Part shown: positions 2,022 to 22,387 of the stretch, piece by piece
How positions within the stretch are numbered: position 1 is the first letter of the stretch
Layout of the letters: each line of letters starts with the position of its first letter
Source of the DNA: a virus
Length of the DNA stretch: 24,136 nucleotides
IMG/VR virus record: IMGVR_UViG_3300035670_001220
Coordinates: 1 to 24,136 of that record
Reading direction: 5' to 3' (one strand)
Program-made: the position numbers and the translations under genes
Notes under the pieces: model-generated
Databases searched by the model: none
Told to the model about the DNA's origin: nothing
The model's input: only the letters and a program-made list of their open reading frames with translations

Positions 2022-2169
2022 GCATATCTACTATGAGCAAGGCGCCGATATTTGTCCCAAATGCGGGCGCGACACTCATAGAATAGATTGGGCTTTACAG
2101 AACAAGCTAGCCAAAGAGTGGAAAGAAGCTAATCCAGATGCTAAGTACGGAGGATGGTGGAGCATATGA
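1999..2169 (+). CDS. Small zinc-ribbon-like protein, 56 aa
   Basis: The ATG at 1999, inside the end of the upstream gene, opens a 56-codon frame beginning MTTRKLCEHIYYEQGADICP. Cys7 and His9, then CPKCGR (residues 19-24) and a following His, give a plausible zinc site. The C-terminal half is a Trp/Lys-rich helix ending GGWWSI. GAAGAAAG lies just upstream of the start. Its TGA overlaps the next ATG (ATGA). The cysteine pattern, codon-coupled ends and clean fit between neighbours make this a real gene despite its size. Confidence 0.65.
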   Translation: MTTRKLCEHIYYEQGADICPKCGRDTHRIDWALQNKLAKEWKEANPDAKYGGWWSI

Positions 2170-2297
2170 GTAGTGGCAAGCTAAAACCGCATTATGGTTT
2201 TAACAAAACTCAAATTAAAGGCGGCTATATTGTTAGATTACGCAAGAACGGTACCGTCGCCGCTGTGCTAGAGCCCTACCCACGAAAGAAGAAATAA
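2166..2297 (+). CDS. Small basic protein, 43 aa
   Basis: Starts in an ATGA overlap with the previous gene, with GGAGGATGGTGGAG upstream. The 43-residue product (MSSGKLKPHYGFNKTQIKGG...) is compact and basic, with an apparent beta-rich core (GGYIVRLRKNGTVAAVLEPY) and a PRKKK tail. The TAA overlaps the next ATG as TAATG. No family is recognised. Confidence 0.6.
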   Translation: MSSGKLKPHYGFNKTQIKGGYIVRLRKNGTVAAVLEPYPRKKK

Positions 2298-2680
2298 TGG
2301 CTCAAAATTCAAAATCCAAGCAATTTGAAAAGATAGACCTAGAAAAGCTATCTAACAACATTAAAGCTGCCGCAAAGGGAAACGTATCTTTTAAACTTCA
2401 GACTCGTGACCTTCCCCCAGCCATTGGACGTATCCATGACGCAGTCGAGGGTGGCCACATAACCGTTGAAGAGGGTATGGACCTTAATCCTAATTACAAT
2501 CCTGAAAATAGGAAAAAGAATCAAATGGCGTCATCCAACATACGCCAGTATGAAAAGAACCTAGACGTTACGAGAAAAAAGCTTAGAGAGAACGCGGCTA
2601 AGAGAGCGGCTGGCATACCTCGCACTGGAAAAGGCGGACGTCCTGTTAAGTCTAAAAAATCCGAAGAAGACAAAAAGTGA
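2297..2680 (+). CDS. Basic hypothetical protein, 127 aa
   Basis: A lysine-rich hydrophilic protein. Residues 42-65 (AIGRIHDAVEGGHITVEEGM and on to LNP) contain a motif that recurs near the C-terminus of the unrelated-looking protein at 9014 (GIKAGNITEEEAWELSP). Outside this segment the sequence is low-complexity and probably disordered, ending GRPVKSKKSEEDKK. The TAATG start and GTGA end place it in the coupled operon. Function unknown. Confidence 0.65.
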   Translation: MAQNSKSKQFEKIDLEKLSNNIKAAAKGNVSFKLQTRDLPPAIGRIHDAVEGGHITVEEGMDLNPNYNPENRKKNQMASSNIRQYEKNLDVTRKKLRENAAKRAAGIPRTGKGGRPVKSKKSEEDKK

Positions 2681-2865
2681 ACCCGATGAAATCTGAGGGT
2701 GTAGTTACCCGTTTTTTGCCTCGGTCAAGCGAACATGCAAAGGGTCAACAATTTCGTCGGATTAATGACCCTATCTTTGGTGGGCCAAGAGGTAGTCGTC
2801 AACGGTATTCTTCTTCTATAGCAGCAAAAGATGTCGTAACAAAAACAGATAGATGGGGTGCGTAG
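2677..2865 (+). CDS. Small hypothetical protein, 62 aa
   Basis: A GTG start at 2677 overlaps the previous TGA by three bases (GTGA); an ATG four codons later at 2686 is an alternative. The product contains EHAKGQQFRRINDPIFGGPR, and the KGQQF string recurs in the protein at 9014. It is Arg/Ser-rich and probably disordered. Its TAG overlaps the next GTG. No family is recognised. Confidence 0.6.
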   Translation: MNPMKSEGVVTRFLPRSSEHAKGQQFRRINDPIFGGPRGSRQRYSSSIAAKDVVTKTDRWGA

Positions 2866-3161
2866 TGTCGGAAGTAAAAAAATTTGGTCCTTACAAAGGT
2901 TCCAAGAAAAATAAAGGGCGCCCAATCTACGTCTTCAAGAAAAAGGGTAAGGACGGAAAGTGGCACACCACATCCTCTGACAAGGCCCGAGTGGACTATA
3001 AAGAGAAGACGGGCAAGAAGCTGCGAAAAGACCAAGAAGTTGACCATAAGGACAATAACCGAAATAATGACGGAAAAGGCAACCTACGAGTTATCAGCAA
3101 AAGCAAGAACGTAGCAAAAGAGAACAAGCGCCGTGCTGGTAAAAAGGAGAATGAAAAATAA
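2865..3161 (+). CDS. HNH-type nuclease-like protein, lysine-rich, 98 aa
   Basis: The C-terminal half carries EVDHKDNNRNNDGKGNLRVI followed by SKSKNVAKENKRR, the layout of small phage HNH proteins (DH, then an N-rich loop, NLRV, then a basic helix). The family nicks DNA. The protein is unusually lysine-rich throughout. I chose the GTG at 2865, which overlaps the upstream TAG by one base as elsewhere in the cluster. An in-frame ATG at 2853 would add four residues. The Asp-His pair and the loop Asn are present, so activity is possible; only the HNH assignment is confident. Confidence 0.75.
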   Translation: MSEVKKFGPYKGSKKNKGRPIYVFKKKGKDGKWHTTSSDKARVDYKEKTGKKLRKDQEVDHKDNNRNNDGKGNLRVISKSKNVAKENKRRAGKKENEK

Positions 3162-3406
3162 TGGAGTTTGTAGTATTAGTAATAGCAGCAATGGCTGTTG
3201 GTTTTGCGCTGTATGCCTGGGACCAAGAGAAGCAACTTAAAGAGCAGGCTGAGCTTGATGAAGCGCTTCGTAATGAGCGTCTTGCTAAAGCTGTTGAGCG
3301 TTATGACAGCTTGCTTAAGAAAACCGCCAAGAAGAAGCCAGCTAAGAAAACAGCTAAGAAAGCTGTAAAAAAGAAGCCAGCTAAGAAAGCAGCTAAGAAA
3401 AAGTGA
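3161..3406 (+). CDS. Membrane-anchored protein with H1-like lysine/alanine tail, 81 aa
   Basis: Residues 2-20 form one hydrophobic segment (EFVVLVIAAMAVGFALYAW). A short charged coiled-coil-like helix follows (about 22-52). The tail from about residue 53 is built from KKTAKKKPAKK-type repeats, resembling histone H1/HU-tail sequences known to bind and condense DNA. A membrane anchor with a DNA-binding tail would tether nucleic acid to the inner face of the membrane, though the orientation is inferred from positive charge. TAATG start, GTGA end. The repeat region could slip during replication. Confidence 0.65.
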   Translation: MEFVVLVIAAMAVGFALYAWDQEKQLKEQAELDEALRNERLAKAVERYDSLLKKTAKKKPAKKTAKKAVKKKPAKKAAKKK

Positions 3407-3597
3407 AGCCCAAGAAAGACCAATTAAAGAGAGTACTTCCTCCAGGAACACCAACTCCTATTGGGATGGGCGCTCTTGTAGGTCCTGAAGACTTCTGGGC
3501 TGAACATGCCCGTAGAGAGGCCCACAAAGCAGAAGAAGCTGCGTTTGAGGCCGGTGGGATGGAAGCAGTCAATAAACTTAGAGGTAAGAACAAATAA
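3403..3597 (+). CDS. Small hypothetical protein, 64 aa
   Basis: GTG start overlapping the previous stop (GTGA). The N-terminus is basic and proline-rich (MKPKKDQLKRVLPPGTPTPI). Residues about 28-58 form an Ala/Glu-rich helix (FWAEHARREAHKAEEAAFEA). Ends with TAATG coupling to the next gene. No family is recognised. Confidence 0.6.
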   Translation: MKPKKDQLKRVLPPGTPTPIGMGALVGPEDFWAEHARREAHKAEEAAFEAGGMEAVNKLRGKNK

Positions 3598-3695
3598 TGT
3601 GTCGTGAGTGCGGCGACTGCTCTAAAGAGCACACTCGCACTATTGACGATGCCGTAGACGCAGTGGAGGATGTCGGTTTCTATGCCAAGAAATAA
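3597..3695 (+). CDS. Very small cysteine protein, 32 aa
   Basis: The TAATG-coupled ATG at 3597 opens a 32-codon frame beginning MCRECGDCSKEHTRTIDDAV. Three cysteines spaced CxxCxxC plus a nearby His could bind one metal ion; the rest is an acidic helix ending FYAKK. The start coupling is identical to that of its neighbours, and without it there would be a gap in an otherwise gapless operon. Role unknown. Confidence 0.55.
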   Translation: MCRECGDCSKEHTRTIDDAVDAVEDVGFYAKK

Positions 3696-3936
3696 TAAAG
3701 ACTTTGCAGATGGCGGTACTACTATCAATGTAGGTCCTGAGGGCGTGCATAAGATGGATAAGTCTGGCGTCTCTAAAGTTGACCTAAAGACCGGCAAAGG
3801 GTTGTTTATCCCCTTTACTATGACTAGTAAGAAGAACCCGGACGTAAGTTTTAGCGGCTCACATATAGGTGAAGAAGCTTTTCAAAGTATGGTTAAGAGC
3901 GCTGGAGACAAGTGGCACATTGAAAGGCATGACTAA
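3682..3936 (+). CDS. Hypothetical protein, 84 aa
   Basis: The chosen start (MPRNNKDFADGG...) lies 12 bases after a GGAGG at 3665-3669. An in-frame ATG at 3670 directly abuts that GGAGG and is less likely. The sequence TTINVGPEGVHKMDKSGVSK, then KGLFIPFTM and later ISF-type strands, suggests a small beta-rich fold. It overlaps the end of the 32-residue gene and is TAATG-coupled to the next. No family is recognised. Confidence 0.6.
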   Translation: MPRNNKDFADGGTTINVGPEGVHKMDKSGVSKVDLKTGKGLFIPFTMTSKKNPDVSFSGSHIGEEAFQSMVKSAGDKWHIERHD

Positions 3937-4211
3937 TGGCTAAGTCAGCAGCGTGGACCCGTAAAGAGGGAAAAAACCAAAAAGGTGGCCTAAACGAAAA
4001 AGGCCGTAAGAGTTACGAACGAGAAAACCCAGGTAGCAATCTGAAACCGCCTGTTAAAAAAGAACAGGCTAAAAAGTCTAAAAAATCTGCTGCTCGTCGT
4101 AAGTCCTTCTGTTCTCGTATGGAAGGTATGAAAAAGAAAAACACGTCTAGCAAGACCGCAAGGGACCCCAACAGTAGAATTAATAAGTCCCTCCGCGCAT
4201 GGGACTGTTAA
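3936..4211 (+). CDS. DUF6321-like small basic phage protein, 91 aa
   Basis: The opening AAWTRKEGKNQKGGLNEKGR, the middle RRKSFCSRMEGMKKK and the closing KTARDPNSRINKSLRAWDC match my recollection of a small basic family (DUF6321) common in aquatic tailed phages. Function is not established. Two cysteines are conserved in that family. The protein closes the coupled cluster that began near 1093. The family name is from memory and should be confirmed by a profile search. Confidence 0.7.
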   Translation: MAKSAAWTRKEGKNQKGGLNEKGRKSYERENPGSNLKPPVKKEQAKKSKKSAARRKSFCSRMEGMKKKNTSSKTARDPNSRINKSLRAWDC

Positions 4212-4236: not shown

Positions 4237-4944
4237 ATGGCACTAGATACAGCCGGAAACGTGAAGGTTGACTTCATTTGGGGTAACTTTCCGATGCAGC
4301 CAGATGATGAGCGCACTGGCTCGGCAACAAATATCGGCGGAAGTACAGGCGACACAGGTTGGGCTGCTACTACAAAAGTAAACAGCAACGCGCTTGTTAA
4401 AACCGCAATAACAAAATCATTATGGAATGGGCTCACTTCTTCAGTTGCAAACAACCACAGCGTTGCTTTGAACAACTGGAATGGCTTCCCAGACTACACA
4501 CCAGTATCTCCATACTTGGATACTACTGACCAAGCAGCAATTCCTAACGTTGTTGGCTTGAGCGAATCTGCTGCTAATACAGCTCTTGTCGCTGCAAGCT
4601 TCGTTAAGGGCGCAGTAACCACAACTGGCGTTGGCGCAACTGTTGCTAACGATGGTTTGGTCAAGACCCAGACCCCAGCTGCTACAACCGTATCCAACTT
4701 GGGTACCTCTGTAGCACTTGTTAAGTACTTGGCACCAACAGTTCCAGATGTACTTGGTTTGACTGAGGCTGCTGCTAATACAGCTCTTGTAGCTGCTGGC
4801 CTTGTAAAGGGAGCAGTAACAACTTCAGCTGATGGAGCTACTGCTGAAAATGATGGACTTGTTAAGACACAGACACCAGCTTCTGGTGGAAAGGCCGATA
4901 CAGGCTCTGCTGTCGCACTTGTTCTATACGCATACGCAGGCTAG
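4237..4944 (+). CDS. Two-PASTA-domain protein, probable virion or surface protein
   Basis: Residues 1-98 form a Trp/Asn/Gly-rich N-terminal domain (about 12-95) without a signal peptide, probably a structural fold. Two tandem PASTA domains follow, at about 102-165 (IPNVVGLSESAANTALVAAS) and 169-233 (VPDVLGLTEAAANTALVAAG), each ending with a KTQTPA turn and a final strand. PASTA domains in host Ser/Thr kinases and penicillin-binding proteins bind peptidoglycan fragments, so a wall-binding role is plausible. AAAGGA precedes the ATG. The two copies differ at many synonymous sites, so the duplication is old. Head/tail location is unknown. Confidence 0.75.
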   Translation: MALDTAGNVKVDFIWGNFPMQPDDERTGSATNIGGSTGDTGWAATTKVNSNALVKTAITKSLWNGLTSSVANNHSVALNNWNGFPDYTPVSPYLDTTDQAAIPNVVGLSESAANTALVAASFVKGAVTTTGVGATVANDGLVKTQTPAATTVSNLGTSVALVKYLAPTVPDVLGLTEAAANTALVAAGLVKGAVTTSADGATAENDGLVKTQTPASGGKADTGSAVALVLYAYAG

Positions 4945-4960
4945 TACAAATAGTATAAAC

Positions 4961-4994
4961 TGGAGAGCGACGGGCTAAAATCCGTCGCTCTTCG
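4961..4994 (+). terminator. Strong hairpin after the PASTA gene
   Basis: GAGCGACGG (4965-4973) pairs perfectly with CCGTCGCTC (4982-4990) around an 8-base A-rich loop, and outer pairs extend the stem to about 12-13 bp including wobbles. TTCG follows rather than a T-run, so termination may be inefficient. The next gene's AGGAGG begins 6 bases after TTCGAATTT, so the structure could also affect its translation. Confidence 0.6.
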
Positions 4995-5008
4995 AATTTA
5001 GGAGGAAA

Positions 5009-5224
5009 ATGGTAACCGCAGAAAAGTTACAAGAAGTTTTTACTGATGAGCCTTTAACTTCTAGAGATAGATGCGACCGTTGCAGCGCCGCCGCAAAGGT
5101 ACGGGTTTTTATGAAAGACTCAACTTTAGAGCTTTTATTCTGCGGTCATCATATGAGAAACAACGAAGAGCAATTGAAAAAGGTTGCGTACTTCAACCCT
5201 AATTGGGAGGCTGCGTTACAGTAA
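5009..5224 (+). CDS. Small zinc protein of an actinobacterial family (DUF7455-like), 71 aa
   Basis: The sequence SRDRCDRCSAAAKVRVFMKD with a later LFCGHHMRNNEEQLKK matches my memory of a small family widespread in Actinobacteria: CxxC, a beta hairpin, then CGHH. The two Cys pairs and His residues form a likely zinc site. A strong AGGAGGAAA ribosome binding site sets the start. Function unknown; in this genome it supports an actinobacterial host. The stop codon lies within the loop of a small hairpin before the next gene. Confidence 0.75.
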   Translation: MVTAEKLQEVFTDEPLTSRDRCDRCSAAAKVRVFMKDSTLELLFCGHHMRNNEEQLKKVAYFNPNWEAALQ

Positions 5225-5233
5225 TCTTGTAAC
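5215..5233 (+). promoter_or_regulatory. Small hairpin just before the 5236 start
   Basis: GTTACA (5215-5220) and TGTAAC (5228-5233) form a perfect 6-bp stem with a 7-base loop that holds the TAA of the upstream gene. It ends two bases before the ATG at 5236 and occupies the place where a ribosome binding site should be; none is visible. Translation of the large gene may therefore depend on ribosomes finishing the upstream gene. Confidence 0.35.
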
Positions 5234-5235
5234 AT

Positions 5236-7659
5236 ATGCCAAAACTGCGTATATTCGCAGCAATATTCGAACTTTATAGCAAATTACTTTTTATAACAGG
5301 GGTAGGTATTATTTACCTTCTTCTATCGGTGACTCCTGCTTACGCCGAAGAAACCAGCCCTTCTGAAGGGGAACCGTCAACAACCACAGAACAGCAAGCC
5401 CCAACGCCCACAGAAAGTCCAGAGCCATCTACTGAGCCTTCGCAATCCAATAGCCCAGAGCCCACACCAGAACCAACGACAGAGCCGAGCACAGAACCAA
5501 CACCATCACCTACTCCTTCCACAGAGTCTTCGAGCGAAGCGACTCCAACTCCGACTCCAAGTACTGAACCCGCTCCTTCAACTTCGGACCCTCAATCCTC
5601 CAATACGACATATTCCACTGAGGCGCCTCAAGACCAGACGGATGCGACTGAACCAACTTCTGATTCATCCGCTCCAAATCCGACTCCTGAGCCTGAACCT
5701 TCGCCTGCAACCACTGAACCTTCTCCTGCTCCTTCCGATACAAATCTTCAAACAGAAGAACCCGCTCCATCCCAGCCGACTGAAGAAAGTCAATCTGACG
5801 CTTTAACGGCTCCCGAGTCTGAATCCACCCAACAATCCACCCAGTCGCAAGACAGTACAGAGTCCACAGAGCCCCCTGCCACGTCTGAAGAAAATCCATT
5901 AGTTACCTCCGAACCAGAGCCAGTAGTAACAGAAACTATTACTAACGGTGGGGACGACACGTCATATCTAATTCCTTTGGAGACATCAGTTGTCTTTAAC
6001 GGGGTTACATACGAGCAAATATATGCTACAACCAATTCTGTTATCACCTTTGGTCAAGCCGATGGAACTTATTGGGATTATCCAATGACTCCGTCGCTCT
6101 CAATTGAGTCTCGTGACTGGTGGGCATTGCCTTCTCACAACCCTGATATGCACTTCATCATCCGCACATCAGAAGGTGGCTTCCAAGTAGATGGCGCCTA
6201 TTTGCCTTTTGGAACAACGACTGGAGAGGTAACCAACATTGTTATTACCGCTCAGATTCAAACTGACGGAACTGTTTCTTATACCTATACGGTAGATGGT
6301 CCGCTATATGGTGGCGAGCGCACTGGCGCCAGATTACAAGATGGAACTGTTGTTACTTTAGAAGAGGCTGGTGTTACTCAAGTTGCTGAGCCTGTTGAAT
6401 TGGCTCCGACTCCTGTCGAGCCAGAACCTGAGCCCACTCCGACTCCCACGCCCACACCAGAACCCACACCAGAGCCAACCCCAGAACCAGAGCCAGAACC
6501 AACCCCAGAACCATCCCCAGAACCAACTCCGACACCTGAGCCTACTCCTGTTCCTGAGCCTCAGCCTGAGCCAACTTCTCCATCAGAGCCACCTTCTGAG
6601 GGTCCTGAAGCAACTCCTGTAGAGCCTGTTCAACCTCCGGTCGAACCTTCTCCTGAGCCAGAGCCCACTCCAAATCCGCAGCCTCAACCTGAGCCAAATC
6701 CAAATCCCGAAGTGACACCCGAACCAACCCCGCAACCACAACCGCAGCCCGAGCCCGAGCCAACTCCTCAGCCCGAGTCAACACCTGAGGCTCAACCTTC
6801 TGAAAGCCAAGGGGATACTTCCCCGACAAATCCCACACCTGAACCTGAACCATCTAATCCACTTCCCGAGCCAACTCCGGAACCGTCTCCAGAGCAACCT
6901 GAAGCTCCTTCTGAAAACGAAGAAGCCACTCAGGAACCTGACCCTGAGTCAGAATCGAATCCTGACGAGCCAGTTCAAGATGATACTGAGCCTCCTTCAG
7001 ATGACGCCACCCCTGATGATGATGGTAGTGATACTTCGACTGAGCCAACTGAGACTGATTCATCTACTGAGCCTTCCATAGAAGAACCGCAGACACCCAC
7101 AGAAGAACCAGTAGATACGGAAGAGCCTTCATCGGAACCCGAATCACCGCAGGAGCCGTCGGAGGAAGAGACCGTAGTTGAGGAACCAGAACCACAGCAG
7201 CCGTCACAAGAGATAGAGCAAGAAAATCAGTCCACAGAATCATCCTCGAATAGTACACCTAAAGAAGAGGCTGTAAGCACGTTATTAGAAGAAGCTGATG
7301 GGGAGGCAGTAAGCGTTGACGCAATATTAGATGCAGGTTTAACCCTAGAAGACCTACCACCAGAAACGCCTATTGAGGTTCGCACAGATGAAGAAGGAAA
7401 CGCTGTTATTATTACAGCAGAGGTTGCTGCAGCTCTATTGCTGCTAGAAAACCCAGCTGAACTACTAAGCGAGATATTTTCTGACCCAGGGCAAGTTGTA
7501 CTAGCTCTAGCAAGCATCGGCGCCGATATGTCGCCAGCTGAACGTGAAGAATCCCAAAAAACTATTGTTGCTGCCGTGATTGTAGGGCAGATAGCAGCTG
7601 GTGCCGCCGTAGCCGCAGCGTCCTCAGCTACTCAGTCGGCTAGTAGGAGACCAAGGTGA
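5236..7659 (+). CDS. Large Pro/Glu/Thr/Ser-rich surface-type protein, 807 aa
   Basis: The N-terminus has a hydrophobic stretch (about 16-33) and a signal-peptidase-like AYA-EE site near residue 37. Residues about 38-230 are Ser/Thr/Pro/Glu-rich. About 235-380 is the only folded-looking segment in the first half ([20 protein letters not shown], a beta-rich domain). A long PEPTPEP-type stalk follows to about 670. The C-terminal 130 residues are acidic and helical, with a hydrophobic segment ([20 protein letters not shown], about 776-795) and a basic ASRRPR tail. This architecture suggests an exported, membrane-anchored stalk displayed on the cell, or a virion appendage. No ribosome binding site is visible. 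Stalk codons are varied, so protein sequence rather than DNA repeat is conserved. Confidence 0.8.
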
Positions 7660-7823
7660 AGATACTCAAGGACATGATTGAGCAGCTATGGACTCTTCTA
7701 GGCATGTTCGTTGCCTGGATTGTTCTAGATGGAAGCGCTAAGACAGTTGTCGGTTGGGCGATTGTTGCCACGACCGTTGCCTGGGCGGTGACCTACCCAC
7801 TACGCACTAAGGATGAGGAATGA
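7656..7823 (+). CDS. Two-TM small membrane protein, holin candidate, 55 aa
   Basis: A GTG start at 7656 overlaps the previous TGA (GTGA). The product ([20 protein letters not shown]...) has two hydrophobic segments (about 11-24 and 30-46) joined by a short DGSAK turn, and a charged RTKDEE tail. Size, topology and position two genes before a CHAP endolysin suit a holin or holin partner. Its TGA overlaps the next ATG. No family profile is recognised, so function is inferred from topology and context. Confidence 0.6.
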
Positions 7824-8035
7824 AGAAGCTATTACTAGTCGGTTTACTACTTTTAACTGGTTGTGGATATGATGGAACTTACCGCTACCCCTGCCAAGAC
7901 CCTGCAAATTGGGAAAAAGAGGAATGCAAACCTCCAGTATGTACTGTAAATGGCGCCTGTCCAGAAGATTTAGTTGGTAGCATAGTTACCGACGGACAGA
8001 CCGTTATTACAGATACTGGAGAACTAGATGAGTAA
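7820..8035 (+). CDS. Small lipoprotein, 71 aa
   Basis: A classic lipoprotein signal opens the protein: [19 protein letters not shown], with lipobox LTGC at 12-15. The mature part (YRYPCQDPANWEKEECKPPV, then CTVNGACPEDLVG) contains cysteines likely to form disulfides outside the membrane. I recall close relatives in aquatic phages next to lysis genes. It could assist lysis or act at the surface, for example in superinfection exclusion; neither is shown. ATGA-coupled to the gene before; overlaps the next start by 8 bases. Confidence 0.75.
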   Translation: MKKLLLVGLLLLTGCGYDGTYRYPCQDPANWEKEECKPPVCTVNGACPEDLVGSIVTDGQTVITDTGELDE

Positions 8036-8402
8036 GCCTCGTTATACCGCGGCTGATTTGGACGCGAGATTAAAGTTTATCCTTGGAATCGTCCTTGGCC
8101 TTATTTTGTTATTTACAGCGGTAGGTATTCTCTACGCTCTTATATTCGTAACCCAGCCAGTTAACGCACAGTCTGAGAACGACAAGATGTTTTTCAATGT
8201 GCTGGGTAGCATCGCAACTTTTATCACAGGAACCCTTGCTGGTATCTTGATTGGAAGTAAGGGCGGAAACGAATCCGCTCCAATAGATTTTGGTTCATCT
8301 GAAGAAACTCCAGCTCCTGTAGCTGAAGAGCCTGTTGCTGGTAAAGACAACGCTCAAATGCCAGATGAGCAACCAATTGATGAGGATTGGGATAAAGACT
8401 AA
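8028..8402 (+). CDS. Two-TM membrane protein, holin-like, 124 aa
   Basis: Hydrophobic segments lie at about 17-41 (FILGIVLGLILLFTAVGILY...) and 56-75 (LGSIATFITGTLAGILIG), separated by a short polar loop with PVNAQSENDKMFF. The C-terminal 50 residues are acidic and disordered. It sits directly before the CHAP endolysin and overlaps it by one base (TAATG). Topology and order suit a class II-type holin or a lysis accessory, but a competing holin candidate exists at 16408. No catalytic motif. Confidence 0.65.
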   Translation: MSKPRYTAADLDARLKFILGIVLGLILLFTAVGILYALIFVTQPVNAQSENDKMFFNVLGSIATFITGTLAGILIGSKGGNESAPIDFGSSEETPAPVAEEPVAGKDNAQMPDEQPIDEDWDKD

Positions 8403-8971
8403 TGGCAGAACAAGGAACAGTAGCTAAACTTATCGAGATTGCTAAGGCTGAGATAGGAACTATTGAAGGCCCTCGTGATAACGAGACTAAGTACGGTAAG
8501 TGGTCTGGAGCTAATTTCCAACCCTGGTGTGGCTCATTTGTAAACTGGTGCGCTGACCAAGCTGGTGTAAAGATTCCAAACACTGTATACACCCCTAATG
8601 GCGCAGCATCATTCAAAAAAGCAAATCGCTGGTATGACGCACAAATCTGTGACCCAGAGCCTGGCGATATTGCATACTTTGATTTTCCAGGCGATGGTGT
8701 AGACCGCATCAGCCACGTTGGAATTGTTGTTAAAGACAACGAAGATGGAACTGTATGGTGCATTGAAGGTAATACCACTAATCGCAAAGGTGGTAGCCAA
8801 CGCAACGGCGGTGAGGTATGCCGCCAACTTCGAGCATATAAGAAAAACAAAAAAGGCGTTGTTGTCTCAATCGTAGGCTTTGGTCGCCCTAAGTTTAAAG
8901 GAGCAGCAGCTTCTACTCCCGCAGCGCCTGTAGAGACTTGCAATTGCTGCGGTCAACCTATCAAGAAGTAG
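8402..8971 (+). CDS. CHAP-domain endolysin (cysteine peptidase/amidase)
   Basis: Residues about 5-130 match a CHAP domain: catalytic Cys43 in PWCGSFVNWC, His105 in ISHVGIV, and an acidic/amide partner in the IEGNTT strand (Glu122 or Asn124). CHAP enzymes cut peptide bonds in the peptidoglycan stem or cross-bridge. A basic region follows (about 146-170), then an Ala/Pro linker and CNCCGQPIKK, a possible small metal site or wall-binding tail. There is no signal peptide, so export would rely on a holin, consistent with the membrane genes before it. A 189-residue length is normal for a compact endolysin. Confidence 0.9.
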   Translation: MAEQGTVAKLIEIAKAEIGTIEGPRDNETKYGKWSGANFQPWCGSFVNWCADQAGVKIPNTVYTPNGAASFKKANRWYDAQICDPEPGDIAYFDFPGDGVDRISHVGIVVKDNEDGTVWCIEGNTTNRKGGSQRNGGEVCRQLRAYKKNKKGVVVSIVGFGRPKFKGAAASTPAAPVETCNCCGQPIKK

Positions 8972-10118: not shown

Positions 10119-10454
10119 GTGGCAACCTTTACAGCTAAAAGATTGTCTGGGCCCGTAGCCTTGAGCACTTCTGAGGTAAGCCAGTTTACTGTTGCGTCTG
10201 GTCGCTCAGTGGTTGTTAAACAATTTGTTTTTACTAACCACACCGCTGCTTCAGCTACAGTTACTGCAAATTTAGTGCCAGCTGCAGGTTCTGCCAGTGC
10301 TGGTAATAGAATAATTGGCGGCCTAGTTATCGGTGCCAACTCAACAATTATTGTTGCTGTTGATTTACCTATGGCTGTTTCTGAATCAATAGTCGCCGTA
10401 GCTTCAGCTTCTTCTACTATTAACTTAACTATAACGGGAGTCGAGATAGTCTAA
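10119..10454 (+). CDS. Beta-sandwich-type phage structural protein, 111 aa
   Basis: GTG start 7 bases after AAAGGA. The sequence MATFTAKRLSGPVALSTSEV followed by alternating Val/Thr/Ala strands and GNRIIGGLVIGANSTIIVAV is typical of small Ig-like or jelly-roll virion proteins. I recall a family of about this length in phage tail or decoration regions with the same RLSGPVALST opening. No Cys, few charges. TAATG-coupled to the next gene. Confidence 0.65.
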   Translation: MATFTAKRLSGPVALSTSEVSQFTVASGRSVVVKQFVFTNHTAASATVTANLVPAAGSASAGNRIIGGLVIGANSTIIVAVDLPMAVSESIVAVASASSTINLTITGVEIV

Positions 10455-10600
10455 TGCCACGTCCTGGAGATTTTACTGTTTACGGGCCAACCGTTATCAC
10501 AAACAATGATGATGGAGACCGCAATATCTTTGTTTCTACCGGTGACCCAGTATCTTCAGCAGGTCAGAACGGCGATATCTGGCTTAAGTACACTGTGTAG
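10454..10600 (+). CDS. Small virion-type protein, 48 aa
   Basis: Starts within TAATG and runs 48 codons (MPRPGDFTVYGPTVITNNDD) to TAG at 10598-10600. It ends SSAGQNGDIWLKYTV; a GDIW(L/V)xY segment is common near the N-termini of tail fibre and appendage proteins, where it contributes an exposed strand. This may be a separate small attachment module for the large protein that follows 6 bases later. Function inferred only. Confidence 0.55.
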   Translation: MPRPGDFTVYGPTVITNNDDGDRNIFVSTGDPVSSAGQNGDIWLKYTV

Positions 10601-10606
10601 GTTCTC

Positions 10607-12184
10607 ATGGCCCATGGGTACATAAAGCAGGGTAATAGCTGGAAACAAATAGATTCTTATTATGTAAACGTTGATGGAACCTGGAAACAGGTTAACGCTG
10701 TATATGTAAAAATTAATGGCTCTTGGGAAATAACTTATCCCGAGCCAGTTCTTCCTCCTCCCCCACCACCACCGCCTCCTACGCCTCCTCCACCACCACC
10801 GCCTCCATCTCCAGGTGGTCCGCCACCTCCACCCCCACCCCCACCTGTAGCCTGCTGCCAAAATACTGGAGAAACTGTTTGTATTGGCGGTTTTATATAT
10901 AACCTACGAACTGACCCTTGTACAGGCTCAGATTGCACAGCTACTCCTACAGGAAATACCTGCGGCCCTACCTGCAGTGAGGTAACAACTAGCGGTCTTT
11001 GCTATTGTTCAAGCGCAGATGTAGCAAATCCATGCAGCCCTTGTTACAACACTTCAACTAGCAACGTTTATGCTTGCAGTAATTATGTGACTGGCGGAGT
11101 TTATTGCGGCACTTTTTATGGTTGTTTTGCAGACCAAGAATCTGAGTATTATCCAGACTACTGCTTTGGAAATGATGAGACTGGCTACGGAAGAGCAACT
11201 ACATGTGTGTATGAAAACTCAAATTGCAACAGCATCTCTGTTATATGTGATTCCGCTACGCCGCCTCCTCCACCGCCACCTCCAGCACCAACATTCTGCT
11301 CTACTTGTACAGCAACTTGCTTAAGCCTTAGCCAAGCTAATGCTGGCTGGTGTGAAGCGAACTATGGAATCTATTATTTTTGGCAAGAAATTAGTAATAA
11401 CGGTACAGATTCATGCGGTAACTGCATTCAAGATATACCGCCACCTCCGCCACCTCCGCCACCACCTCCACCTCCACCGCCACCAGCGGGAGCATGTTCA
11501 ACTTGTGCGTCACCTAACTTTTTCGTAGGAAACAGCCAAGCTAATACTGCTTTTTGTGTTGCTAACTATGACAGCTCTTATGTGTGGGTTTCCGTCTGCT
11601 CAAACGCAACTCAAACCTGTGGACGCTGTGTACAACAGGTATCCCCGCCTCCGCCACCACCGCCACCAGCGGCTCCGCCACCACCGCCACCACCACCTGC
11701 TAATCCTTGCAGCAACATAATTGACGAGGTCAGCGTAGGGGTTGTGTTTAGGTCTGAGTGCTGCGGTAACGCAGAACAAGTAGCTCTTTACGGAACTGGC
11801 TACGCTTTCTGCGGATATGCGTATTACTGCATCTCGTCATGCACTCCCCCTCCACCTCCACCACCTGCTACTCCACCACCGCCACCACCGCCACCAGCGG
11901 CTCCGCCTCCACCACCGCCACCAGCTAATCCCTGTGCCGGTGTTACATGCGGACCTTGCTATGGTTGCTACGTTGGATTCTGTGAATATGACGGAGTAAG
12001 TAATGGTTGTGCTCCAACACCACCGCCACCACCGCCACCAGCGGCTCCGCCACCACCGCCTCCACCAGCGGGTAACGTGTGCTCAGCATGCCCAGAGTAC
12101 GTTGCAACATCTGTAGCCTGTTCTAACTGTACAAGCTGTGTGAACTCTGGCGGATACTGGACAGGTTCAGGCTGCGTTTACTAA
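10607..12184 (+). CDS. Cysteine-rich modular protein with polyproline spacers, probable appendage
   Basis: Residues 1-43 hold three short WK(Q/E)-type repeats (SWKQIDSYYVNVDGTWKQVN and so on), as seen at the start of phage tail/appendage proteins. The remaining 480 residues alternate six long proline tracts (8-17 prolines) with cysteine-rich modules of 30-140 residues containing CSTC, CGxC and CxxC patterns. The modules resemble small disulfide-stabilised folds, so the mature protein likely works outside the cell or on the virion. No signal peptide is seen. The ATG at 10607 has only a weak AGG before it. Polyproline rods could act as rigid spacers. Confidence 0.7.
   Translation: MAHGYIKQGNSWKQIDSYYVNVDGTWKQVNAVYVKINGSWEITYPEPVLPPPPPPPPPTPPPPPPPPSPGGPPPPPPPPPVACCQNTGETVCIGGFIYNLRTDPCTGSDCTATPTGNTCGPTCSEVTTSGLCYCSSADVANPCSPCYNTSTSNVYACSNYVTGGVYCGTFYGCFADQESEYYPDYCFGNDETGYGRATTCVYENSNCNSISVICDSATPPPPPPPPAPTFCSTCTATCLSLSQANAGWCEANYGIYYFWQEISNNGTDSCGNCIQDIPPPPPPPPPPPPPPPPAGACSTCASPNFFVGNSQANTAFCVANYDSSYVWVSVCSNATQTCGRCVQQVSPPPPPPPPAAPPPPPPPPANPCSNIIDEVSVGVVFRSECCGNAEQVALYGTGYAFCGYAYYCISSCTPPPPPPPATPPPPPPPPAAPPPPPPPANPCAGVTCGPCYGCYVGFCEYDGVSNGCAPTPPPPPPPAAPPPPPPPAGNVCSACPEYVATSVACSNCTSCVNSGGYWTGSGCVY
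10750..12070 (+). repeat. Interspersed CCN polyproline coding tracts
   Basis: Six tracts of CCA/CCG/CCT/CCC codons lie at about 10747-10848, 11261-11289, 11440-11486, 11645-11700, 11845-11929 and 12018-12070. The last three share near-identical nucleotide stretches such as CCGCCACCAGCGGCTCCGCC, which points to recent duplication or recombination between tracts. The intervals between them are unrelated in DNA sequence. Confidence 0.65.
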
Positions 12185-12452: not shown

Positions 12453-12692
12453 ATGAACGAGTGGCAAAAATGGAAAGAAAGAGCAAAGCTTTTTCAAGAA
12501 AGTGAAGCAAAACCTTGGCATGTTTTAGACAAGGATAAGCACACTGATGAGGAAGAAGCCGCTAAGCGTTTTGAGATATGCAAAGGCTGTGAGTTCTTAA
12601 CCAAAACCACAAATCAATGCCAGAAGTGTGGGTGCTTAATGCACCTTAAGACTAAGTTAAAGGCGGCCACGTGTCCGATAGGGAAGTGGTAA
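12453..12692 (+). CDS. Four-cysteine zinc protein (DUF6171-like), 79 aa
   Basis: A charged helical N-terminus (MNEWQKWKERAKLFQESEAK) is followed by a zinc knuckle pair: CKGC near 43-46 and CQKCGC near 56-61, then MHLKTKLKAATCPIGKW. The ending ATCPIGKW is one I recall from a small zinc-binding family in aquatic phages. It overlaps the next gene by 22 bases. Possible DNA or protein binding; role not known. Confidence 0.7.
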   Translation: MNEWQKWKERAKLFQESEAKPWHVLDKDKHTDEEEAAKRFEICKGCEFLTKTTNQCQKCGCLMHLKTKLKAATCPIGKW

Positions 12693-13402
12693 ATAACTTT
12701 ATAGATATCTATACGCACTCCGGAAGAGAAAGCGTATTTGATATACAACCCGCCTCGGTGCTGCGTCAGTGGATGGACGAGACCACAAACCAATGGGCGT
12801 ATAACTGCTTACCTTTAAAGATAGCTAACCAGTACGGTTGGGTAGCTCATTCTCCCTGCACCTTTTCAGTTACTTGGAATGGCGGTCAAGGGAAGTCAGA
12901 TGTGGTTGTCGAAGCAGATGGATGCGGGTGGCCCCAGTCACACTTCCACCACGGAATATTAACAATTAATACAGATTTCTTAATACGTACCTCCTTAGGT
13001 ACATCTCTCTACGTTAGAGGCTTTACCAACTACCAAAAAGACCTTATCTATCCAATGGACGCCATAATAGAGACCGACTGGCTTCCTTTCCATTTCCCAT
13101 TTAGCTACAGATTCTTAAAGCCTGGAACTGCTGTGTTTGAGAAGGGCGAGCCCTTATTTATGTTTTTTCCTATAGAACGAGGGTATGTAGAAACCTTTGA
13201 AGTTAACTTCAAGAGCATGAATAGTAATGAAGAGCTCAAAGAACAAAATAGAAGATTCTCAGAATCTAGGGGCGAGCACATGGCTAATAGACGACCTGAG
13301 GCTCAAAAGTTTTATATAAAAGGAGCCGTTGTAGACGAAAAAGCAGAGATAGAAGCACACAGAGTTAAACTGAAACTAAATCAACCAAAGGTGGTCGAGT
13401 AA
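12671..13402 (+). CDS. DUF6065-family protein, first copy, 243 aa
   Basis: GTG start within the end of the previous gene. The segment LRQWMDETTNQWAYNCLPLK followed by IANQYGW, a TWNGG strand, a later IIETDWLPFHF and KGEPLFMFFPI fits DUF6065, a family of unknown activity. A paralogue with the same landmarks lies at 14360, and a glycosyltransferase separates them, so a role in sugar or surface chemistry is a context-based guess. The fold appears beta-rich. TAATG coupling to the glycosyltransferase suggests co-expression. Confidence 0.75.
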   Translation: MSDREVVNNFIDIYTHSGRESVFDIQPASVLRQWMDETTNQWAYNCLPLKIANQYGWVAHSPCTFSVTWNGGQGKSDVVVEADGCGWPQSHFHHGILTINTDFLIRTSLGTSLYVRGFTNYQKDLIYPMDAIIETDWLPFHFPFSYRFLKPGTAVFEKGEPLFMFFPIERGYVETFEVNFKSMNSNEELKEQNRRFSESRGEHMANRRPEAQKFYIKGAVVDEKAEIEAHRVKLKLNQPKVVE

Positions 13403-14382
13403 TGTATTTATCGTTAGCTGCTTACAGAGACCCGATGCTTCAATCTACAATTGACTCTGCATTTAAAAACGCTGACAAACCTGAAGAGTTAACAGTAGGT
13501 TGTTTTATCTCCGTCATCTCAGACTCAAAAGAAACAAGCCGTCATCTTATAACTAATGACTATAACGGCTCTGTTAGATATGAGGTAGAAGAGGCTGGTT
13601 CTATATTTAGCGTTACTAGAGCTAGAAACAAGTCAAACCAGTGGCTAACTAAAGAACATAAATACCTATTACAAGTTGACTCGCACTCAAGGTTTTTACC
13701 TGGGTGGGATACCCAACTAATAGACTCATATGAACGCTTAGGTATGCCTAATGCTCTATTCAGCACCTATGTGCCATCCTGGTTTCCCACGCCGGATGGT
13801 GAGCACTACAGAGAATGGCAAGATAATAAAACTATTATGTTCACTAGCTATGACGAAGGCTCTAGAGCTAGAGACGCGTTTTTTGAAACATACGAAATAG
13901 TCCCCTGCCAAACTGTTGAGCAGAATCCTTCTGGTTCTTTTTATAAAGGCTGGCATGTTGCTGGTATGTTCCAATTTGGCCCAGCACACTACTACTTAAA
14001 GTTCCCACAACCGGAGTGGATAGTCTTCTGGGGAGAAGAGATGTACAACAGCTGCGTGGCTTTTACTAATGGCTGGGATGTATACATTCCAGACGTAATG
14101 CCCCTTCGCCAGATGTTTCCCCAAGACTTAACTGAGGAAATGAATCAAAAGTTTTTTGGGAATCCTAAAGGGCCACACAAAAATTGGCGTGATTTTGGGG
14201 ACAAATGGTTTAGAGCAGAAAGAAACTCAACAGACCTAATAATTGATGCTCTCTTAAACAAGACAACTGGTCCTGGGTATTTAGGGACTGTACGCCCCAT
14301 TGAAGGGCTATACGAGTTTATTGGATACAATATCGCTGAACTATACAAGAGGTGGAGAGATGAGTACAGAGAAATACATTAG
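13402..14382 (+). CDS. Glycosyltransferase, GlcNAc-transferase (GT60/PF11397) type
   Basis: A 326-residue protein opening MYLSLAAYRDPMLQSTIDSA, the (I/L)SIAxYRDP start of the PF11397/GT60 group. VGCFISVI follows at 32-39, SVTRARN at 70-76, and YLLQVDSHSRFLPGWD at 88-103, where Asp93-x-His95 is the metal-binding DXD-like motif. Family members transfer GlcNAc or related sugars from UDP donors to proteins. GWHVAGMFQFG and WGEEMYNS later fit the acceptor/catalytic half. Cytoplasmic (no signal or TM). Likely targets are virion or host surface components; none is shown. Overlaps the next gene by 23 bases. Confidence 0.8.
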   Translation: MYLSLAAYRDPMLQSTIDSAFKNADKPEELTVGCFISVISDSKETSRHLITNDYNGSVRYEVEEAGSIFSVTRARNKSNQWLTKEHKYLLQVDSHSRFLPGWDTQLIDSYERLGMPNALFSTYVPSWFPTPDGEHYREWQDNKTIMFTSYDEGSRARDAFFETYEIVPCQTVEQNPSGSFYKGWHVAGMFQFGPAHYYLKFPQPEWIVFWGEEMYNSCVAFTNGWDVYIPDVMPLRQMFPQDLTEEMNQKFFGNPKGPHKNWRDFGDKWFRAERNSTDLIIDALLNKTTGPGYLGTVRPIEGLYEFIGYNIAELYKRWRDEYREIH

Positions 14383-15163
14383 ATTCCATCACTTAATTCC
14401 ACCTGGAAAGCGGCTTCATATTGAGCAATCTCCAGTAGACCGCCAATGGATGGATGACACGCATATGGGGTATGCGTACCGTTGTTTACCAATGACCTAT
14501 GCCAGCAGGCACGGCTGGTGTTTCCGTTTAGTAGAGGATGTAGAAGTTATATGGGATGGCGGCACTGCTGCTGATAACACGCAGATAATTTGTGGTCGGG
14601 AACAAAATGGCATACGAGTCGCTGACAACGGAACGGGTAACGGGGTAGTAACTTTCCATCTAAACGCAGTTCCTAGAACACCTAAAGATTGGAACTTGTG
14701 GATTATGGGAGCGCCTAATCTTGTTATTCCAGGCGCCTCTGCTCTTAGCGGTGTAGTTGAGTCCGATTGGATGTTCTCTTCTCCTACATCCAACTGGAAA
14801 ATAACTGAGCCAAATAAATTAATTACCTTTAAAAAAGGCGACCCAGTCTTTTTCTTCATACCTATTCACAAGACAGAGCTAGAAGAGTTCACGATAGAGC
14901 ACACAACACCAGACTCAGATATGAACAAACATCTAAGTGATTTTGGAAAGTGGAGAGCAGAAGCCGAGGCTTCAGGTCAAGGCGTGTTTGGAAAAATGTA
15001 TCTAAGAGGTCATAGACCAGATGGAAGTAAACCTGAGTGGGAACACAACCATAAAACTAAACTTAAGTTAGACGAACCTGATACTAATGCTAAACCTTTG
15101 CTAAAACCGACTTCGCAACAATCTTTTGTTTTTGACGCATCATCTTTCGCTGTTTATCGTTAG
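14360..15163 (+). CDS. DUF6065-family protein, second copy, 267 aa
   Basis: GGTGGAG precedes the ATG at 14360, which was preferred over an in-frame start at 14300 inside the glycosyltransferase. Shared landmarks with the copy at 12671 are RQWMDDTHMGYAYRCLPMTY (versus RQWMDETTNQWAYNCLPLKI), an IWDGG strand, VVESDWMFSSP and KKGDPVFFFIPI. This copy is longer at the C-terminus. The copies have diverged strongly, so the duplication is old or they entered separately. Its 3' end overlaps the convergent WhiB gene by 74 bases. Biochemical role unknown. Confidence 0.75.
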   Translation: MSTEKYIRFHHLIPPGKRLHIEQSPVDRQWMDDTHMGYAYRCLPMTYASRHGWCFRLVEDVEVIWDGGTAADNTQIICGREQNGIRVADNGTGNGVVTFHLNAVPRTPKDWNLWIMGAPNLVIPGASALSGVVESDWMFSSPTSNWKITEPNKLITFKKGDPVFFFIPIHKTELEEFTIEHTTPDSDMNKHLSDFGKWRAEAEASGQGVFGKMYLRGHRPDGSKPEWEHNHKTKLKLDEPDTNAKPLLKPTSQQSFVFDASSFAVYR

Positions 15164-15356
15164 TGCCAGCCCAGATGCCTTGAACTGAATGCTCTAAAGA
15201 GTATTTCAGACAAGGCTCCTGGAACTGACAGCTATTACAGACTATTCGTAGTTCTTTTAGTGCTTCGATTTCTTCGGCAGCAGAGTCTGGAAAGAACTTG
15301 TCCCCTGGCATTGAAGCGCATGGTTGAGTTCCATCAAATCCTGGTGCCTTAGTCAT
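15090..15356 (-). CDS. WhiB-like iron-sulfur transcriptional regulator
   Basis: Four cysteines, Cys13, Cys40, Cys43 and Cys49 (C...CNSCQFQEPC), fit the [4Fe-4S]-binding pattern of Wbl proteins, followed by the turn GIWAGT (60-65, usually GVWGG) and a basic tail (KQRKMMRQKQK). Wbl proteins bind the principal sigma factor and DNA; phage copies such as WhiBTM4 can interfere with host division or exclude other phages. The 88-residue length is normal. AAGGAG lies in the end of the upstream leftward gene and the ATG directly follows its TAA, so the two are one operon. The GIWAGT variation does not remove key residues. Confidence 0.85.
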   Translation of the reverse strand: MTKAPGFDGTQPCASMPGDKFFPDSAAEEIEALKELRIVCNSCQFQEPCLKYSLEHSVQGIWAGTNDKQRKMMRQKQKIVAKSVLAKV

Positions 15357-20284: not shown

Positions 20285-20602
20285 ATGGCGCTAATCAAAG
20301 GTAAAGAGGTAAAGGAAACTCCCAAGGAGTATGCCGCCAATCCTCGACTATGGAACATGATTACAACTCAAGCACGTACTAAATTTGCTAAATACCCATC
20401 CCCTGCTGCTGCTCACTGGGTTCGTACTCAGTACGAGATGAAGGGTGGAAAGTTTGTCGGTTCTAAAAAAGACATAGACCCTCGTATGCGGGATGTGGCA
20501 GAAGAGAAAAAAGAAGACAAGCTAAAGAAAGCAAAAGGCCGCGTCACTAAAGACGTTAAAAAGGCGGTTACTAAAAAAGTTATTAAGAAAGTAGCCAAGT
20601 AG
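20285..20602 (+). CDS. Small basic protein with DUF5872-like motif, 105 aa
   Basis: Residues about 20-58 (RLWNMITTQARTKFAKYPSP, then AAAHWVRTQYEMKGGKFV) match a KxPSxxAxxWVxxxYxxxGGxF motif found in small phage and viral basic proteins (DUF5872 as I recall). The last 40 residues are Lys-rich helix (KAKGRVTKDVKKAVTKKVIK), likely DNA-binding or virion-internal. AAGG precedes the ATG. Function unknown; the head-module position suggests packaging with DNA. Confidence 0.65.
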   Translation: MALIKGKEVKETPKEYAANPRLWNMITTQARTKFAKYPSPAAAHWVRTQYEMKGGKFVGSKKDIDPRMRDVAEEKKEDKLKKAKGRVTKDVKKAVTKKVIKKVAK

Positions 20603-20607
20603 GAGAA

Positions 20608-20636
20608 TAGGACTTTTAGCAATTTAATGCTAAAGT
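20608..20636 (+). promoter_or_regulatory. Candidate promoter overlapping a hairpin before the portal
   Basis: TAGGA (20608-20612) and the extended -10-like TGCTAAAGT (20628-20636) repeat the pair seen before terminase. The same bases form an inverted repeat, TTTAGCA (20615-20621) with TGCTAAA (20628-20634). It may be a promoter, a weak terminator, or both. The portal GGGAGG follows at 20660. Confidence 0.35.
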
Positions 20637-20671
20637 TTGCCTATTCATATATTTTATTGGGAGGACTTTAG

Positions 20672-22387
20672 GTGAGCATAGACTTCTCGCCCCCGTCGTA
20701 TAGGGCAGCGTCTTCCGACCTCACAATCTCAATATCTCCGCTAGGTTTAGTAGAACTAGCTGATGAAGAGTTCGAAGTTCACGGACCACGTTTAAATAGA
20801 TACTCGTTGAACTGGGCCATGTATCTAGGCCACCATACTTCATTCCGCCGCCAGCAAGGCGAGCCGCAAATGGTATTTAATTATTACCGTGCATTTACAG
20901 ATTTCATCATTAACTTCACATTCAGCAAGGGCGTTATGTTCCGTAGCCCTAAAGCAACTGAGGCTATCGTCCCAGATTTGCTTGAACGAGTATGGGAAGT
21001 AGATAACAACAAGGCAACTGTTCTTTGGGAAATTGGCCAGCAAGGTGGAGTGTCAGGCGACTGCTTTATCAAGGTAGCTTACGAAGAGCCCTACGCTGAC
21101 TCAGCTGGTATGGGACATCCTGGACGAGTCCGCATTCTTCCGCTTAACTCTTCTTTCTGCTTTCCAGAGTTTCATCCTCATGACAGAAATCGTTTAATTC
21201 GTTTTAAGCTCAAGTACCGCTTCTGGGGAACTTCGCTAGAAGGAACCCGCCAGGTATACACCTACACAGAAATTCTCACTGACGATGTTATTGAAGAGTA
21301 CATCAACGACGAACTAATTGACTCGCGGCCAAACCCGCTTGGCGTAATTCCCGTGGTACATATTCCAAACGTCCGTATCTCCGGCTCACCTTGGGGGTTG
21401 TCAGATTGCAACGAGATTATCTCTCTAAATCGCACCTACAACGAAACAGCTACAGACATTGCCGACATCATCAACTACCACGCAGCTCCTGTTACCGTAA
21501 TTATTGGAGCAAAAGCTTCGCAGCTAGAGAAAGGCGCCAACAAAGTATGGGGCGGCCTTCCAAAGGATGCGAGAGTTGAGAATCTAGAAGGCGGCGGAGC
21601 TGGACTAAAGGGCGCTATGGAATTCATGGCAATGCTAAAGAAGTCCATGCACGAGATGGTCGGCGTTCCTGAAACCGCTCTAGGTCAAGCCCAGCCTATT
21701 TCAAATACTTCAGGTGTAGCTCTATCTATTCAGTTCCAACCTTTGATGAACCGCTATCACCAAAAGATTGTTCAGTACGCTTATGGACTAGAGCGCGTAA
21801 ATGATTTAATTCTTCGTAATCTAGCTGTTAAAGAACCAGAGACATTTACCTGGAACCCTGAGAGCGATACACTGCCAAAGCGTGACCAACTATTACAGCT
21901 TGACCCTAATGACCCATTAACTTATAGAACTTATGTTCACTTCCCGCCACCTTTGCCTCTTGACAAACTAATCGTACTTAACGAAGTTCAGTCAATGCTA
22001 TCTCTAGGTCTTGAATCTAAAGAAGGCGCTCTGCGTACTCTAGGTGAAGAGTTCCCAGCAGAGAAGCTACAGGAAATCCGTCAAGAACTCATTGATGACG
22101 CCAAGGCGGATGGCGCACTTAAGCTTGTCCAATCCGAAATCCAGAACGAAATCATGACCCTAACCGGCATGGTTCCTGGACCGGATGGAGCAGCCACACC
22201 TATGGCCCCAGACCAGGCAGCTGCAATAGGAGCAGGTGGCGGTTCGCCAGCTCAAACTCCTATTCTTGATGGGGCAACAATTGAGGGTATGCGTCTTGGG
22301 GAACAGGATATACGTCAGCGTCTAGTCACAGAAGCTTACGGAACCAAGATTCCTCAAAAGCGAGTACCACAAGAATATGAGAAATAA
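20672..22387 (+). CDS. Portal protein
   Basis: The 571-residue product lies between terminase and scaffold, the classic portal position, and its sequence fits: an N-terminal region with SLNWAMYLGHHTSFRRQQGE, a core strand-rich wing (about 150-240), and the long-helix stem region. That region includes NRTYNETATDIADIINYHAA and MLKKSMHEMVGVPETALGQA, with the (M/V)xGVPxxxLG turn typical of portals. The ring of 12 forms the DNA entry vertex and docks terminase. The C-terminal Gly/Ala/Pro stretch (about 505-535) is flexible. GTG start after GGGAGG. I cannot tell which portal subfamily it joins. Confidence 0.88.
   Translation: MSIDFSPPSYRAASSDLTISISPLGLVELADEEFEVHGPRLNRYSLNWAMYLGHHTSFRRQQGEPQMVFNYYRAFTDFIINFTFSKGVMFRSPKATEAIVPDLLERVWEVDNNKATVLWEIGQQGGVSGDCFIKVAYEEPYADSAGMGHPGRVRILPLNSSFCFPEFHPHDRNRLIRFKLKYRFWGTSLEGTRQVYTYTEILTDDVIEEYINDELIDSRPNPLGVIPVVHIPNVRISGSPWGLSDCNEIISLNRTYNETATDIADIINYHAAPVTVIIGAKASQLEKGANKVWGGLPKDARVENLEGGGAGLKGAMEFMAMLKKSMHEMVGVPETALGQAQPISNTSGVALSIQFQPLMNRYHQKIVQYAYGLERVNDLILRNLAVKEPETFTWNPESDTLPKRDQLLQLDPNDPLTYRTYVHFPPPLPLDKLIVLNEVQSMLSLGLESKEGALRTLGEEFPAEKLQEIRQELIDDAKADGALKLVQSEIQNEIMTLTGMVPGPDGAATPMAPDQAAAIGAGGGSPAQTPILDGATIEGMRLGEQDIRQRLVTEAYGTKIPQKRVPQEYEK

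Follow-up and report, generated by a model that had tools for sequence, protein, structure and literature searches.

A candidate adhesion protein of a probable actinobacteriophage alternates polyproline rods with cysteine-rich modules

The window analysed here is the entire 24,136-base IMG/VR virus record IMGVR_UViG_3300035670_001220, whose phage genes include those for a terminase and a portal protein. The terminase is 55% identical to that of Streptomyces phage BRock, a contractile-tail phage (a sheath gene is present), and up to 90% identical to terminases from many environmental contigs. The presence of a whiB gene, a host marker previously used for freshwater actinophages (PMC6802176), points to an actinobacterial host. 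Upstream of the terminase gene, near genes for CHAP and SLT lysins and, judged by the gene order of BRock, away from the main tail cluster, lies an open reading frame (ORF) for a protein in which proline-rich blocks alternate with cysteine-dense stretches (Table 1). The gene preceding it has phmmer matches (E from 1e-10 to 1e-29) in the corresponding position of seven related contigs (L006, L012, L013, L026, L032, L043 and L063) and thus marks the locus, but its alignment is too divergent to serve as an anchor for scanning. A small 48-aa ORF (MPRPGDFTVYGPTVITNNDDGDRNIFVSTG..., positions 10455-10600) without a PHROG match separates the two. Downstream, genes for a DUF6171 protein, a DUF6065 protein, a PF11397 glycosyltransferase and a second DUF6065 protein follow in this order. 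Elsewhere in the window, a protein of 807 aa, probably bearing a signal peptide, has long stretches rich in Pro, Glu and Thr on either side of one conserved stretch; it is a second candidate for a rod-like surface protein and has a relative in L029.

Table 1. Positions of the features discussed in the text, numbered along the window
Feature	Position	Strand	Remarks
Second rod-like surface candidate	5236-7659	+	807 aa
Conserved upstream gene	10119-10454	+	locus marker; phmmer matches in relatives
Rod/Cys ORF	10607-12184	+	525 aa; ATG start; WK N-terminus, six Pro-rich rods, six Cys modules
WK repeat	10607-10741	+	aa 1-45; three predicted beta-hairpins; probable virion anchor
Pro-rich rod 1	10742-10846	+	aa 46-80
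Cys module M1	10847-11254	+	18 Cys; CYCSSADVANPCSPC; sole module clearly common to the L085 group
Pro-rich rod 2	11255-11293	+	aa 217-229
Cys module M2	11294-11437	+	6 Cys; duplicate of M3
Pro-rich rod 3	11438-11488	+	aa 278-294; holds the longest run (P16)
Cys module M3	11489-11641	+	6 Cys
Pro-rich rod 4	11642-11704	+	aa 346-366
Cys module M4	11705-11842	+	6 Cys
Pro-rich rod 5	11843-11929	+	aa 413-441
Cys module M5	11930-12016	+	6 Cys
Pro-rich rod 6	12017-12073	+	aa 471-489
Cys module M6 (C-terminal)	12074-12181	+	6 Cys
DUF6171 small Cys protein	12453-12692	+	PF19668, E = 2.6e-8; downstream of the rod/Cys gene in most relatives
DUF6065 copy 1	12671-13402	+	PF19541, E = 2.1e-65; predicted dUTPase-like fold
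PF11397 (GT60-type) glycosyltransferase	13402-14382	+	PF11397, E = 6.5e-22
DUF6065 copy 2	14381-15163	+	PF19541, E = 2e-50
whiB	15090-15356	-	PF02467, E = 8.4e-11

The start codon of the rod/Cys ORF is supported by its relatives, which begin with MSHGY. The encoded protein, with 118 prolines and 48 cysteines, opens with a WK repeat, after which rods and modules alternate, six of each; the alternating architecture described in an earlier note on this DNA is thus borne out, with every cysteine falling inside a module. The six runs of up to 17 prolines that the note had counted are in fact six blocks made up of 12 uninterrupted runs of 7-16 prolines each. As the note had also pointed out, the N-terminus (MAHGYIKQGNSWKQ) lacks a visible signal peptide, and no transmembrane segment is apparent in the protein. 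Only four Lys or Arg residues occur in the 480 residues beyond the first 45, and past the WK repeat no PHROG or Pfam model covers the remainder. An AlphaFold model built with 12 sequences reproduced the WK hairpins and the rods, whereas the modules, for which structure prediction had been proposed, were assigned no confident fold (pLDDT about 30-45). A search of BFVD with this model yielded nothing at E<=0.001, the weak best matches extending over ~40 columns of other phage proteins.

Eight relatives (L083-L087, L106, L107 and L110) carry homologues of 656-692 aa at the same locus, all displaying the WK start, poly-Pro rods and Cys modules, and partial copies are found in L133 and L076. These longer homologues additionally possess a C-terminal Hint-like domain that is absent from the window protein and whose assignment is weakly supported (weak matches to Intein_splicing and to the gp41-1 intein); it ends in HDS in L085 (7894-8379), L087, L106 and L110, and a similar Hint/intein-like domain in L026 (2969-3940) ends in HN. 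In other relatives the rod is of a different nature: L063 retains the WK start and Cys modules on poly-Thr rods, an Ig/cadherin-like part takes the place of the rod between the WK start and Cys modules in L012, L013, L014, L043 and L128, the version in L032 is glycine-rich and Ig-like and has four Cys in its tip, and only the PASTA/Hint version of L026 combines a WK start with the lack of a Cys tip. Since poly-Pro, poly-Thr and Ig-like parts stand in for one another among the relatives, it is the Cys tip, rather than the chemical nature of the rod, that is more often retained. The first module is shared between proteins of the Ig-like and the poly-Pro type (among 500 Cys-preserving decoys, 0-1 match the score), and a 4-Cys module common to the Ig-like and L085-type proteins was detected neither in the window nor in L063. 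The start of M1 resembles by eye the CCQDTGE tip of L012 and L013, but 58 of 1000 decoys score equally well and homology is therefore not claimed.

Divergence among these proteins is concentrated in the modules. L087 and L083 are 97-100% identical just outside the modules on both sides and 61-91% identical inside them, and a repeat of ~100 residues with several cysteines in L087 is replaced by poly-Pro in L083. The pairs L085/L086 and L106/L133 show a weaker form of the same pattern, a diverged distal region set between conserved flanks. Such local diversification is as expected for a recognition surface, without proving one, and exchange of tips by recombination is part of the reading that we favour.

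The proline tracts themselves are not fortuitous. In runs of at least four residues we counted 102 prolines, compared to a maximum of 29 in 10,000 composition-preserving shuffles, far beyond clustering by chance. Nor are they mere products of DNA slippage: the codons within the runs are mixed (53 CCA, 23 CCT, 22 CCG and 4 CCC) and the 72 poly-Pro codons compared between L106 and L110 differ by 37 synonymous and no nonsynonymous changes; the latter pattern shows that proline is selected at the protein level. Polyproline-II helices are stiff, and the blocks of the window protein would by analogy be stiff as well, each measuring roughly 4-11 nm at 0.31 nm per residue. Translation of poly-Pro requires EF-P.

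The modules are a mixture of related and seemingly unrelated units. M2 and M3 are clear duplicates (local alignment score of 116.5, reached by none of 1000 Cys-preserving shuffles) that have five cysteines in common and a sixth at different sites, so that the count stays at six. By local alignment and shuffles, no relation of M4 to M2, M3, M5 or M6 was detectable, and no counterpart of M4-M6 was found elsewhere. All 17 tabulated modules and tips contain an even number of cysteines, for which the probability by chance can be estimated at ~1 in 30,000 if the ~15 not recognisably related modules are taken as independent. Across the eight homologues 36 Cys columns are invariant, indicating that the modules are conserved as units, as the earlier note would require; homologues devoid of them, which would have spoken against its proposal, did not emerge as the pattern, the Cys tips persisting where rods are poly-Thr or Ig-like. 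Moreover, Cys 294 and Cys 336 of L085 come and go together, both being present in L085, L086 and L110 and both absent from L083, L084, L087, L106 and L107. Even parity, the co-varying pair and the preserved count of M2 and M3 favour the pairing of cysteines within modules, and we infer that the modules are held by intramodular disulfides.

Parity and co-variation alone do not exclude metal sites, and we have therefore retained as a rival explanation that the modules are zinc-binding beads of the zinc-ribbon type, able to fold while still in the reducing cytosol and in no need of late oxidation. The window protein does contain ten CxxC motifs, M2 and M3 both start and finish with one, and the nearby DUF6171 gene carries CxxC motifs too. 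However, the homologues have only 0-4 CxxC and few or no histidines; paired CxxC, the hallmark of a zinc ribbon, is thus not a conserved feature of the family, whereas the even number of cysteines is. In addition, the modules are nearly without Lys and Arg and are rich in Ser, Thr, Gly, Tyr and Asn, a make-up typical of extracellular disulfide-rich proteins. Zinc binding consequently appears unlikely.

Polyproline rods joined to six-Cys domains are known from the CPP-1 and minicollagen proteins of Hydra (PMC6910907, PMC4863159), whose general plan the window protein shares. Recombinant CPP-1 crosslinks spontaneously via disulfides (PMC6910907), which raises the possibility that interchain disulfides bundle the phage rods into trimers or a network. 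Yet the three six-Cys spacing patterns of minicollagen-type domains (ending in CC) were matched neither in the window nor in any relative, and the even number of cysteines per module together with the co-varying pair within a module favours intramodular pairing; interchain bundling thus seems rather improbable. The cnidarian resemblance is one of architecture only, between a phage protein with many modules and proteins with two.

Phage collagen-like tail fibres offer a second comparison, sharing stiff low-complexity rods that space small domains, a variable genomic region and a probable fibre role. These include EPclA of the Escherichia coli O157:H7 prophages (PMC3368898) and the collagen-like proteins that 'Ca. 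Nanopelagicales' phages encode within a variable island of tail-fibre genes (PMC10202952). Two genes with collagen repeats also precede the terminase gene in BRock, which is the closest relative in culture. In contrast to these, the rods of the window protein are plain poly-Pro, its translation contains no Gly-X-Y repeats, its domains are Cys-rich and there is no homology. Rod-bearing phage fibres and cnidarian Pro-rod/Cys-domain proteins are therefore already known, while our literature search found no paper on phage proteins combining poly-Pro with Cys modules.

The WK repeat is the one part of the protein that PHROG models cover. It matches PHROG 36019 (E = 1.6e-4), PHROG 25859 (E = 4.8e-4) and PHROG 6977, annotated as 'minor tail protein' (E = 0.0033), over positions 4-43 of 229, 4-41 of 183 and 244-283 of 284, respectively; the likeness is confined to the hairpin repeat in the N-terminal 40-45 residues, and the remainder of the window protein falls outside these models. 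AlphaFold places its strands at residues 4-8/11-15, 19-22/25-28 and 32-36/39-43 (pLDDT 71-82). The motif is also found in a protein of Prochlorococcus phage P-HM2 annotated as 'tail fiber protein; host specificity'. In phage ClubPenguin it forms the C-terminus of a hydrolase gene product, and WK may for that reason serve more generally as a repeat for binding instead of being an anchor.

How widespread the architecture is depends on where one looks. The earlier note had called it uncommon in phages, and indeed tblastn searches of 50,697 phage records gave no credible match to the whole protein, a search limited by low-complexity masking, or to M1; a search for the M1 repeat in 84,980 bacterial and archaeal genomes likewise returned no relative. 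In environmental phage contigs, on the other hand, the architecture recurs. Searching for eight Pro codons with a Cys codon two codons further on retrieved at least 120 stretches; among the matches listed were 75 poly-Pro ORFs, eight of them Cys-rich, including three proteins (L146, L196 and L261) in which a fibronectin type III (Fn3) domain is followed by a rod and a Cys tip. All three are encoded directly after a tail-fibre-like gene, which in L146 and L261 matches minor-tail and tail-fibre PHROGs with E of about 1e-18, and, apart from this protein, their phages have none in common with the window, L012 or BRock at the threshold used. L012, a member of the window's phage group, encodes at a second locus (20450-21016), just after a tail-fibre-like gene, a homologue of these proteins composed of an Fn3 domain, a rod and an eight-Cys tip; here the rod is poly-Thr instead of poly-Pro. 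Exchange of Pro for Thr rods is therefore seen in two protein families, WK and Fn3. The tips of all four Fn3 proteins also have an even number of cysteines. These proteins differ from the window protein by the Fn3 domain at the N-terminus and by their usually single rod, and the resemblance between their tips and the window modules is one of plan, homology not being claimed. The scan also brought up two adjacent Cys-rich ORFs (4610-6766 and 6763-8541, with 71 and 48 Cys) with poly-Thr/poly-Pro linkers on an unrelated phage-like contig, L252.

The receptor-binding or adhesion role put forward in the earlier note thereby gains indirect support from the occurrence of WK beside tail-fibre genes, from the Fn3 proteins encoded after tail fibres and from the swapping of modules. 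The position of the gene near lysin genes and off the main tail cluster would also suit a non-virion protein acting in or around the infected cell, for instance as a surface blocker or in lysis. The lack of a visible signal peptide or transmembrane segment, the WK N-terminus in common with tail proteins, and the collagen-like rod proteins that BRock has in the corresponding region all speak against such a function, which we regard as having a low probability.

The enzymes encoded downstream suggest another fate for the rods. One member of PF11397/GT60 is Skp1 Gnt1, an enzyme that attaches GlcNAc to hydroxyproline (PMC6939170), and we therefore asked whether the rods could be Pro-hydroxylated and then glycosylated by the PF11397 enzyme, possibly a modifier, to give extensin-like glycorods. 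The enzyme gene lies two genes downstream of the rod/Cys gene, 2OG-Fe(II) oxygenases are encoded beside the poly-Pro versions in L106, L110, L076, L196 and L261, and the poly-Thr/Cys version of L063 is directly followed (2081-3978) by a possible GT11-like glycosyltransferase (weak match) and an NAD-dependent nucleotide-sugar epimerase. However, glycosyltransferase and oxygenase substitute for each other at poly-Pro loci instead of occurring together: the place of the PF11397 gene is taken by an oxygenase in L106 (10850-11443), L110 (9334-9927) and L076 (839-1429), and whichever is present adjoins DUF6065. No oxygenase was found in this 24-kb record, possibly a fragment, and in a survey of 120 loci oxygenases were no more frequent near poly-Pro ORFs (8/67) than at loci without such an ORF (7/53). 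DUF6065 does not appear to supply the missing activity, its profile failing to match 2OG oxygenases; a model of copy 1 of moderate confidence (mean pLDDT 62.6) instead matches dUTPases (Foldseek E = 2e-4; VIA Z = 10 over ~116 residues), predicting a dUTPase-like fold. The gene at 4051-4638 of L006, considered as another oxygenase candidate, gave neither a Pfam match nor a significant profile match. Hydroxyproline glycosylation of the rods is thus not supported and seems very unlikely; host glycans or other components of the phage may be the targets of the downstream enzymes.

Taken together, we consider that the protein is, on balance, probably an actinobacteriophage protein of adhesion or receptor recognition that is attached to the virion and stabilised by disulfides, its virion location, disulfides and receptor contact being inferred from the comparisons above. 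Docking to the tail, or to some other part of the virion, would be the task of the WK hairpins, and the poly-Pro blocks would act as stiff polyproline-II rods spacing the modules outward from the particle. Each small, Lys/Arg-poor module would be held by its own internal disulfides, which, given synthesis in the reducing cytosol and the lack of a signal peptide, would form only after lysis, in oxic water. The modules would provide a variable contact surface, undergoing duplication, loss and exchange among phages between two flanks that do not change. More tentatively, and with less likelihood than otherwise, this could reflect a general cassette system in which disulfide-stabilised mini-domains on interchangeable Pro or Thr rods form the receptor-binding tips of many uncultured aquatic phages, made reduced and maturing only outside the cell.

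Freshwater actinobacteria are among the commonest bacteria of lakes, and to our knowledge little is known of how phages recognise them. If the modules are recognition tips, they would constitute a compact and readable set of specificity units. The proposed maturation, if true, would represent a case of phage parts obliged to oxidise after lysis, and such proteins would supply naturally occurring rods that are short and rigid, along with very small, stable domains.
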